Shown: piece after piece, positions 23,286 through 45,474 of the stretch
Layout of the letters: every line of letters starts with the position of its first letter
How positions within the stretch are numbered: position 1 is the stretch's first letter
DNA from: Asticcacaulis sp. SL142
GTDB lineage: Bacteria; Pseudomonadota; Alphaproteobacteria; Caulobacterales; Caulobacteraceae
Direction: 5' to 3'
DNA: 64,000 nt
Assembly (NCBI RefSeq): GCF_026625745.1
Contig: NZ_CP113061.1
Span: forward strand, 806,001 to 870,000
Translations under genes and position numbers: made by a program
The notes under the pieces: model-generated
Seen by the model: the letters and a program-made list of their open reading frames with translations, nothing else
What the model was told of the DNA's origin: nothing
The model's database searches: none

Positions 23286-23876
23286 ATGACGCATCAGAAT
23301 ATTAAAACGATCTGCCTATATTGCGGGTCGTCAAATGGCAAAGACCCGGCCTATGTTAAGGCCGCTCAGGAATTTGGCACGCTGCTGGCACAGACGGGAT
23401 TGAAACTGGTATATGGCGGTGGTGATGTTGGCCTGATGGGGGCTGCCGCCCGCGCCGCCTATGACGCCGGTGGTCAGGTCAAAGGCATTATGCCGCGCTT
23501 TCTGCGCACCCGTGAGCGCCTGTTTGACGAAGTCGAAACCGTCGTTGTCGAATCAATGCATGAGCGCAAGATGCTGATGTTTGAGGACTCGGATGCATTC
23601 GTCGTGTTTCCGGGTGGCGTTGGCACGCTCGAGGAAGTTATTGAGCTTTTGTCGTGGCGGCGGCTGGATCTGCACAAAAAGCCGATCATTTTCTTTAATC
23701 TGAATGGCTATTGGGACCCGTTCTTTGCCATGGTCAGCCATACGCTTGCTGAGGGCTTTACCCCGGAGGCCTTCCTGAAAACCTATATGAGCGTCGACAA
23801 GGTTTCCGACATTCTCAAAGCGGTGAGCTATATGTCGACTCAGGATGAAGATATCGATACGCGCAAAGTTCTGTGA
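23286..23876 (+). CDS. LOG-family nucleoside 5'-monophosphate phosphoribohydrolase
   Basis: A Rossmann-fold protein of 196 residues (TIGR00730). ICLYCGSSNGKDPAY opens the fold, LVYGGGDVGLMGAAA is the nucleotide site, ESMHERKMLMFEDSDAFV carries the catalytic Arg, and FPGGVGTLEEVIELLSW is the PGGxGTxxE signature. The family splits the N-glycosidic bond of nucleotides such as AMP or cytokinin riboside phosphate. In bacteria it is mostly nucleotide housekeeping. Single gene. Confidence 0.92.
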   Translation: MTHQNIKTICLYCGSSNGKDPAYVKAAQEFGTLLAQTGLKLVYGGGDVGLMGAAARAAYDAGGQVKGIMPRFLRTRERLFDEVETVVVESMHERKMLMFEDSDAFVVFPGGVGTLEEVIELLSWRRLDLHKKPIIFFNLNGYWDPFFAMVSHTLAEGFTPEAFLKTYMSVDKVSDILKAVSYMSTQDEDIDTRKVL

Positions 23877-26731: not shown

Positions 26732-26965
26732 AAGACCTGCACTCCGAATCTAACTGTTAAGTCCCCAAAGGTCCTAACAGACCCCAAACCATTTAGCTCC
26801 GGCTGCAAACATCGCGCCACAAACCGGACAGCCCTTTTTTAGGCGGCTTATAGACACCGGAATAAGACGATTCAATGACTTTACGCAGGATTTTTTCACA
26901 AGGGAGACAATAGGTCGCCTCAGTGAGACGCCTTATGCAACTAAACCCTTCATTGCAATGCAGAT

Positions 26966-43317: not shown

Positions 43318-44493
43318 TTATGGCAGAACCAGATTGGGATCGATCGGCTTTGCGATTTCGGTCGACGGCGTATAGCGAATCTCAAAATGCAGTTGCGGCT
43401 TTTCCACGGCTCCGGTCTTACCGACCCGGCCGATGACCTCGCCCTTCTGGATCTTTTGATTGGTTTTCACGTCCATCTTATCGAGATGAGAATAGCCGGT
43501 ATACCAGCCATTGCCATGCTGGACATAGATAGTGTTGCCCAGCTCCTTAACGTGGCCGCCGACATAGACCACCTCACCGTCAGCCGCCGCCCGCACCTCA
43601 GCCCCTTCGGAGGCCCCAATATTGATGCCGTCATTGCGGACATTAGGCCCAAGTTGACCATAAGGCACCAGCAGCGGTCCCTTAACGGGCCAGAGGAAGC
43701 GCCCTTTGCCCATCTGCGCCAGGGTCGATGAGGTTGGGAAGGTTCCGGCCTTAGCGACCACAGGCTTATTCACAGTCGTATCCACAGGCTTTTCCACCGG
43801 TTTAGCCACAGGGGCCGTGGGAGTGGTTACGGTCGTCGTCGTCGTCGGCTTGGCGGGCTCCGTCACAGCCACGGTCGTTGTGACCTTAACCTCCGGCTTT
43901 GGGGTCTCCGGAGTCGCGGGCTTAGGTTGGGCGACTGCAACCGTTGTCACCACCTTGGCCGGAGCCGGGCCGGTGGCATGGGCCACAGCCCCTGCGTCCT
44001 TGGCGGCATCCGGTAATTTAAGCTTTTGACCGATCGACAGGCCCGCCCCTTCGGCCAGACCATTGTGTCCCATCAGGTTTTTCAACGGCACACCGAAACG
44101 GCGCGAAATACCATAAAGCGTGTCCTTGGCCTGAACAGTATAGACATAGGTTGTTTTCGTGGTCGCTACGGGCTTTACCGCCGTCACGGTTTGAGGCGTT
44201 GCAGGCTTTGGGGCCGCCGCAGTGGCCGGTGCGGGCGTGGGCAAAGCGGCCAGTGGGGCCGACGTTATCTGACCACTGGGGGCTGCCACAGGGGCAGCCT
44301 CTACTGGGGCGGCAGCTTGTGGCGAAGGCACGGGCGCACTGCCCATTGGATGGGGCGCCATCGCGGGCGGACGATCCTGCATATAGATCGGATATTTCGG
44401 CTCAGCATTTTGCATCGACGCACAGGCCGACAAACCCAATGCCGCGACCGAAGTCAACATCACAATCCTAGAGACAGCTTTGAAACGGTGCAT
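43318..44493 (-). CDS. nlpD: NlpD-type LysM/LytM lipoprotein
   Basis: 391 residues. The lipobox LGLSAC gives a lipid anchor. A LysM domain is at about 150-195 (YTVQAKDTLYGISRRFGVP), a Thr/Pro/Val-rich linker follows, and the C-terminal LytM (M23) domain ends the protein. The zinc ligands are mostly lost: RNDGINIGAS where hydrolases have H-x3-D, and PQLHFEIRY where they have HxH. As in E. coli NlpD, it should activate amidases during division and not cleave murein itself. The surE-pcm-nlpD order supports the name. ATG at 44493, after AGAGGG. Confidence 0.88.
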   Translation of the reverse strand: MHRFKAVSRIVMLTSVAALGLSACASMQNAEPKYPIYMQDRPPAMAPHPMGSAPVPSPQAAAPVEAAPVAAPSGQITSAPLAALPTPAPATAAAPKPATPQTVTAVKPVATTKTTYVYTVQAKDTLYGISRRFGVPLKNLMGHNGLAEGAGLSIGQKLKLPDAAKDAGAVAHATGPAPAKVVTTVAVAQPKPATPETPKPEVKVTTTVAVTEPAKPTTTTTVTTPTAPVAKPVEKPVDTTVNKPVVAKAGTFPTSSTLAQMGKGRFLWPVKGPLLVPYGQLGPNVRNDGINIGASEGAEVRAAADGEVVYVGGHVKELGNTIYVQHGNGWYTGYSHLDKMDVKTNQKIQKGEVIGRVGKTGAVEKPQLHFEIRYTPSTEIAKPIDPNLVLP

Positions 44494-44641
44494 GATCTTG
44501 CCCTCTCCGATCCTGAAAGACACGTAAGTCGCGACATAGTTATCAATCATGGCTAACGAATCGTTACCTTTGCGCCATTCCCGGTAATAAACCGTCAATA
44601 ACTACCGCCGCGCCCTACATTAAACTTACTTAACTGGCCTG

Positions 44642-44658
44642 CTGGCACGAATGATGCT
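44642..44658 (+). promoter_or_regulatory. Near-consensus sigma-54 promoter in pcm-nlpD gap
   Basis: CTGGCACGAATGATGCT matches YTGGCACG-N4-TTGCW at every fixed position except the first T of the -12 element, with exact GG-N10-GC spacing. It points to the plus strand, away from nlpD and towards the 3' end of pcm. The predicted transcript would start near 44669, in a TAAATATATAACG stretch. No annotated-type gene is downstream except the small ORF described next. Confidence 0.55.
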
Positions 44659-44682
44659 AGTAAATATATAACGCCGTTATTG

Positions 44683-44703
44683 AATGTAACCTAGGGTTAC
44701 ATT
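44683..44703. repeat. 21-bp perfect palindrome
   Basis: AATGTAACC and its complement GGTTACATT flank TAG. It lies about 14-34 bases after the predicted sigma-54 start site. It could be an RNA hairpin in the leader or a dimeric repressor site. No other copy was noticed in the window. Confidence 0.6.
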
Positions 44704-44728
44704 TTCGAGTTTGAAGAGGGGGCTTCTT

Positions 44729-44821
44729 ATGGGGGCGTACCACTTCAAAGCATGGAGATCACTCACTCTGGTCTCCGGATTAACTTATCCCCCTGTCATC
44801 CGGCAGGGGGATCTCTTTTAA
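44729..44821 (+). CDS. Candidate 30-codon small ORF
   Basis: A short ORF starts with ATG after an AAGAGGGGG ribosome binding site, 6 bases away. The product begins MGAYHFKAWR and ends VIRQGDLF. It ends in the last codons of the opposite pcm, and the terminator hairpin is within its final third. It follows a sigma-54 promoter. A real peptide, a leader ORF or pure chance are all possible; an untranslated small RNA over 44669-44819 is the main alternative. Confidence 0.3.
   Translation: MGAYHFKAWRSLTLVSGLTYPPVIRQGDLF
44787..44819 (+). terminator. Intrinsic terminator, plus strand, pcm-nlpD gap
   Basis: ATCCCCCTG (44787-44795) and CAGGGGGAT (44804-44812) form a 9-bp stem with an 8-base loop, followed by CTCTTTT. 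The T tract is on the plus strand, so it suits the sigma-54-driven transcript better than pcm or nlpD. A similar C5/G5 hairpin follows tatC at 48064. Confidence 0.65.
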
Positions 44822-45474
44822 GTGTCCTTCGCGACCCCTTCGAGCAACGGCACAAACCGCACCTCGCCCAGATCCTCAACCTCATAGTGGTCATCTTTGG
44901 TGCGGGTATAGCGCAGCAGTTGCTGTACCGATCCGCGCCCTTGCGGGGCCACCATCACGCCATTGATCTTCAGTTGCGACAACAACGGATGCGGCTCATC
45001 GGGAAGTGCGGCGGTCACCAGAATCCGGTCGAACGACGCCTGTTCCGGCCAGCCATCCCAGCCATCACCAAAGCGGTAAATGATGTTTTCCAGCATCAGC
45101 CGTTTATGGCGGATTTCCGCCTCCAGCATCAGCGAACGATAGCGCTCTATGGTATAGACATAACGGCAAAGGCGCGACAGGATCGCCGTCTGATAGCCAG
45201 ACCCCGTGCCGATTTCCAGCACCCGATGACGCGCCTCCAACTTCAACGATTGCGTCATTAACGCGACAATATAGGGCTGAGAGATCGTCTGCCCCGCCGC
45301 GATCGGAATGGCCGAATCTTCCCAGGAACGGTCGAGGAACAGTTCCGGCACAAACAGGTCACGCGGCGTATATTCCATCGCGTGCAGCAGACGCGGCTCA
45401 GAAATCCCCTGGGCTTTCAGGCTGTTTAACAACCGATGCAAGCGGGTTTCGGGAACGTCATCCTCTTCGCTCAT
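44818..45474 (-). CDS. pcm: Protein-L-isoaspartate O-methyltransferase
   Basis: Repairs isoaspartyl residues in aged proteins with SAM. 218 residues. The signature [20 protein letters not shown] is complete, with the SAM loop [18 protein letters not shown] and the [14 protein letters not shown] strand. The ATG overlaps the surE stop by 4 bases. It is the canonical member, unlike the weaker homologue at 20112-20741. Confidence 0.95.

Follow-up and report, generated by a model that had tools for sequence, protein, structure and literature searches.

Does the plus strand of the gap between pcm and nlpD, both of which are read from the minus strand, carry a gene of its own, and would the product of such a gene be an RNA or a small protein? 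The gap lies in a 64,000-nucleotide stretch of the Asticcacaulis sp. SL142 genome, referred to here as the window, along which all positions are counted. It is bordered by minus-strand genes for a PCMT protein (E 1.3e-55) and for a LysM/M23 protein of the NlpD type. The nlpD start was placed at the ATG at 44493, most likely the correct one judging by the lipoprotein-like signal that follows from it, and the gap therefore measures 324 nt. The original prediction had described a series of plus-strand elements in this gap, and all of them were found at their places. It had also described the terminator as antisense to the 3′ end of pcm; this overlap exists, but its extent is small, since the tail covers only 2–4 bases at the pcm stop codon.

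In the direction of the putative transcription, the plus-strand unit begins with the block TACATTAAACTTACTTAACTGGC (44616..44638, 23 nt), which is identical in all five aligned genomes while its flanking bases vary and which is a possible contact site for an activator or for the polymerase. It is followed by the sigma-54-type −24/−12 element TGGCACGAATGATGCT (44643..44658; GG at 44644–44645 and GC at 44656–44657), with a predicted +1 position at about 44669. The small RNA predicted from conservation and folding would extend over 44669..44819, i.e., about 151 nt, with its end set by the T run of the terminator. Within it, the palindrome AATGTAACC-TAG-GGTTACATT (44683..44703), with 9-nt arms of 100% complementarity, could form a 5′ stem-loop. 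The second hairpin, TTTGAAGAGG ... CCACTTCAAA (44710..44749; a 10-nt inverted repeat, 90%), contains the G-rich run AAGAGGGGG (44714–44722), which resembles a ribosome binding site, and the 30-codon frame opens with the ATG at 44729 (44729..44821). The third hairpin of the consensus fold, GGAGATCA-CTCACTC-TGGTCTCC (44754..44776), is invariant in five of five genomes. The unit closes with an intrinsic terminator (44787..44819) composed of an 11-pair stem (44787–44812), likewise invariant in all five, and the tail CTCTTTT; one change was seen in its loop, in genome G068. A terminator scan of the gap returned this site only, on the plus strand, against an average of 0.4 sites in shuffled sequences.

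The distribution of the unit is narrow. Searching 299 Caulobacteraceae genomes with the DNA sequence yielded strong matches (E ≤ 6.8e-66) in five, the genome of the window included, while 81 others gave weak matches only (E 7.7e-4 or worse) and 213 gave none. When 25 Asticcacaulis genomes were searched with a covariance model, the same five scored 169.6–184.8 bits, 12 of the remaining genomes scored 23.2 bits at most, and 8 had no match. A search for exact matches among named genomes identified A. machinosus, A. endophyticus, and the metagenome-assembled Asticcacaulis sp. UBA2476; an exact search of viral contigs for the third hairpin gave none. The best of the matches outside the strong group, in G222 (E 7.7e-4, query 137–189), was a terminator-like stem scoring 18.5 bits with the RNA model and was not accepted as a homologue. 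Alignment of six weak covariance-model matches demonstrated that some cover little more than the terminator stem; two of the six (L099 and L101) align over the second hairpin as well, but in these the DNA is the closing part of a long open frame, which looks like that of MetK, followed by a terminator, so that both were counted as chance matches. As far as searched, the unit thus appears to be confined to one Asticcacaulis clade.

In all five genomes with a strong match, pcm and nlpD stand on the two sides of the unit, which, as far as seen, travels with this gene order. At all 12 other Asticcacaulis loci (L006–L017, from among the 20 other genomes of the genus), tblastn located no nlpD within about 1.5 kb behind pcm, and the pcm–nlpD arrangement may be disrupted in Asticcacaulis genomes other than those of the five-genome clade. 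At some loci of other genera, nlpD-like matches near pcm were obtained with the same program.

Within the clade, the unit is much better preserved than the silent sites of the neighboring pcm gene, yet, as far as searched, it is restricted to one clade. In the five-genome alignment, the core (alignment columns 68–175, with borders picked after viewing the alignment) is variable in 4 of 108 columns, compared to 111 of 218 third codon positions of pcm (Fisher p 5e-20) and 135 of 654 pcm columns overall (Fisher p 3e-6). Over the 175 columns from the −24 GG through the terminator there are 18 variable ones, and they are unevenly placed: 1 of 18 in GGCAC.AATGATGCTAGT, 8 of 21 from there to the palindrome, 2 of 21 within the latter, both central and with the arms invariant in all five genomes, and 3 of 7 directly behind it. 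The four changes in the core, namely, an A to G in a bulge, a U-A pair turned into U-G, a deletion in a linker, and the change in the terminator loop, all fit the predicted fold. The selective conservation of a structured, terminator-ended unit on the plus strand supports the presence of a small-RNA gene, as had been proposed originally.

Conservation of this kind could also arise if there were no separate gene and the DNA served the minus strand, as the 3′ end of pcm and the control region of nlpD with the palindrome as an operator. The gap is indeed the upstream region of nlpD, no variation is seen in the 60 alignment columns that begin at the nlpD end, 5 of which belong to the nlpD coding region, and a sigma-70-like match is located on the minus strand at 44690–44663. 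However, the well-preserved core with its four variable columns out of 108 is situated next to pcm, on the side of the gap most remote from nlpD, it contains hairpins that have no evident role in a promoter, and the terminator stem was called on the plus strand only. We therefore regard this explanation as highly improbable and return to a small RNA read from the plus strand.

The folding of the predicted transcript is consistent with such an RNA. The region 44670–44820 folds with −57.5 kcal/mol (z −3.76), and none of 200 shuffled sequences was as stable; the RNAalifold consensus contains four stem-loops and a weak outer helix. In the second hairpin of G075, the single U-A to U-G change keeps the pair. 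None of the 48 predicted pairs is changed on both sides among the five genomes, so covariation gives no proof of the fold, and the conservation backs the sequence more than the exact structure. In Rfam, no family exceeded its gathering cut-off over 44400–45000, where three weak matches were obtained, the lowest with E 0.59.

The second product suggested originally was a microprotein of 30 residues, and for this proposal the relatives gave a different answer: the five-genome alignment of the pcm–nlpD gap showed that the frame is not kept. In G075, the substitutions H5R and K7E are accompanied by the deletion of one base, so that from codon 8 onward another frame is read, which ends as a different peptide of 17 residues; in G153 the stop is lost and the frame runs to 34 codons; in G068 the substitution I24M is found. 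All three substitutions alter the residue, and no synonymous change was seen, whereas in the predicted RNA the same peptide-altering changes fall in the bulge, the U-A to U-G pair, the linker, and the loop of the terminator. A short mRNA with a strong ribosome binding site, coding for the microprotein or for a leader peptide, would account for the fact that AAGAGGGGG, its spacing, and the ATG are identical in five of five genomes. Nevertheless, most of the ribosome site is engaged in base pairs of the predicted fold, and the stop codon overlaps the T run of the terminator, so that the transcript may often lack it. A coding function of this type is accordingly considered very unlikely. The changes, few overall, speak strongly against the full peptide, while the first four codons, which are invariant together with the ribosome binding site, may still be translated. 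Because the core is conserved and well folded and the frame is not conserved, a structured small RNA is the likely product, and a 30-aa microprotein is unlikely.

How would this RNA be started? The element at 44643–44658 has one mismatch to TGGCACG-N4-TTGCW, the sigma-54 −24/−12 consensus, and when the 324-nt gap was simulated 5000 times with a first-order Markov model, a site of this quality (≤ 1 mismatch, either strand) arose in 6 of the versions. The 64-kb window contains three such sites on its two strands, the pcm–nlpD element included. The other two, each with one mismatch, are TGGCGCGATGTTTGCA on the minus strand (26804–26819) and TGGCACGCTGCTGGCA on the plus strand (23375–23390), the latter inside a 204-codon open frame (L068). 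Genome-wide, the motif at ≤ 2 mismatches is not enriched (465 sites versus 557 for the reversed pattern). Given these window sites and the genome-wide count, the motif alone is modest evidence, and the main weight of the case is carried by conservation.

The GG-N10-GC framework is present in five of five genomes; neither pair of bases has been lost in any relative, and the fuller consensus is matched with one mismatch in four of them and with three in G075, where a T to C and a G to A change affect the −24 part, the −12 part is unchanged, and the core is still kept. The genome encodes RpoN (E 2.1e-69; 4 of 14 control genomes also give matches to this family) and has eight matches to the sigma-54 activator family, including four full-length ones (E below 1e-49); the weak ones are unspecific, since such matches occur in 14 of 14 controls. 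At least 14 sites with ≤ 1 mismatch are present in the genome. Among the matches listed, one-mismatch sites precede two flagellar genes, one coding for a flagellin (Flagellin_N E 3.2e-27) and one for a member of the flagellar rod family, and the sole perfect site lies before a DUF1465 gene. Six of the 14 listed sites are inside open frames of more than 200 codons other than that of the downstream gene and are probably due to chance. With the GG-N10-GC bases kept in every genome of the clade, RpoN and four full-length activators encoded, and similar sites located before flagellar genes, a sigma-54 promoter is the best-supported start; the originally proposed promoter is in this sense supported and likely, but unproven.

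Other sigma factors have to be weighed at the same place. No plus-strand promoter of the sigma-70 type was called in the gap above the threshold of the tool, whose spacer range is 16–18. Two sigma-70-like candidates overlapping the element were recognized, CTGGCA-N19-TATAAC (9/12) and CTGGCA-N17-TATATA (8/12), so that the same small RNA could be transcribed from an RpoD promoter, with the −24/−12 match partly coincidental and the palindrome, which closely follows the start, acting as the operator of a repressor. The weaker −24 part in G075 and the invariant arms of the palindrome would agree with this arrangement. On the other hand, the 19-nt spacer is long, and TATATA reads TACATA in G060, whereas GGCAC.AATGATGCTAGT varies in only 1 of its 18 columns. 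The palindrome TGTAACCNNGGGTTACA is found at no second place in the genome with ≤ 2 mismatches, unlike the sites of global regulators, and its reading as a global operator was dropped on this ground. An RpoD start is thus an unlikely alternative that still deserves some weight beside the sigma-54 promoter. As for the EcfG motif, GGAAC-N16/17-CGTT, the plus strand of the gap has no site with ≤ 1 mismatch; the best one, with two mismatches, begins at 44686 inside the palindrome.

Taken together, these data make it probable, in our judgment, that the plus strand of the pcm–nlpD gap harbors an independent small-RNA gene, about 150 nt long, with a sigma-54-type promoter and an intrinsic terminator, whose product would act by base pairing. 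Transcription would begin near 44669 when one of the sigma-54 activators of the cell is on, and would stop at the intrinsic terminator at about 44819, with both flanking genes read in the opposite direction. For the RNA, the four stem-loops are predicted, and it would pair with other RNAs via the CUCACUC loop, which is invariant, and/or via the G-rich second hairpin. Pairing is the most likely mode of action by analogy with known RNAs that are structured and end at a terminator, and the CTCACTC loop of the third hairpin is its most likely seed.

A search for pairing partners of the third loop did not rise above its control. The 12-nt complement of the loop region has five matches in G000, the genome of the window, one of which is the locus itself, against five for the control, and three in G075, again including the locus itself, against two. 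One 12-nt putative target site is common to both genomes and is located at the start of a gene for a 122-aa protein, which makes it a weak candidate. At this locus (L113, genome positions 1530339–1530350), the start region is complementary to the third hairpin region at 12 of 13 nt, also in G075, in surroundings that are 90.6% identical anyway, and the site overlaps ATGAGTGAT, a start-codon-like run found at other sites as well. The 122-aa protein has no Pfam match and, by eye, looks secreted. The 9-mer TGAGTGATC occurs 27 times compared to 2 for its control; the word CTAG is rare in many bacteria, and this comparison was not used because the control contains CTAG.

Small RNAs that depend on sigma-54 include Qrr of Vibrio, CrcZ and NrsZ of Pseudomonas, and GlmY of enterobacteria. 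The pcm–nlpD unit resembles them in being a compact intergenic gene with a −24/−12 element, stem-loops, and an intrinsic terminator; it differs in its alphaproteobacterial host and in that its sigma-54 dependence is predicted. Among the papers found in the open PMC library, no Asticcacaulis small RNA, no sigma-54-linked Caulobacter small RNA, and none matching this element was described. The NepR family gave no match in G000, while it did in a control Caulobacter genome, and the general-stress anti-sigma factor of G000 may be diverged or absent.

Two small RNAs of Caulobacter invite closer comparison. GsrN needs sigma-T/EcfG, and its homologues are typically placed near general stress genes, C. 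crescentus excepted (PMC5869019). It is likewise a Caulobacteraceae small RNA with a pairing loop (PMC5869019), but the present unit has no plus-strand EcfG-type site with ≤ 1 mismatch and lies between pcm and nlpD. An identification with GsrN was dropped, as that RNA is placed elsewhere (PMC5869019). The sponge RNA CrfA is induced by carbon starvation, with its transcriptional control not settled there, and pairs through a G/A-rich second stem-loop with UUUCCUCCCU of the Sis RNAs, SisA-D being alpha-R8 (PMC12559287). The second hairpin found here also bears a G-rich run, which recalls CrfA as described (PMC12559287).

A more specific proposal would be that the unit encodes a recent, clade-specific Asticcacaulis small RNA of the flagellar/polar sigma-54 programme, with the unique palindrome behind the start as a second gate, that tunes surface or envelope proteins post-transcriptionally. 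We consider this version unlikely. If true, it would add to the developmental cycle of Caulobacterales a post-transcriptional arm specific to this lineage; the small-RNA gene, if confirmed, would be a compact candidate for a reach of sigma-54 beyond the structural flagellar genes in this order.

Two further observations concern the nlpD side of the gap. In the stretch 44494–44590, all five genomes share the same sequence over the roughly 55 bases immediately preceding nlpD and nearly the same over the next 50 or so, which suggests a separate conserved control region of nlpD. On the minus strand, from 44581 to about 44555 upstream of nlpD, GGAAT-N18-CGTT is found, with one mismatch to the EcfG general-stress motif and a spacer one base too long.
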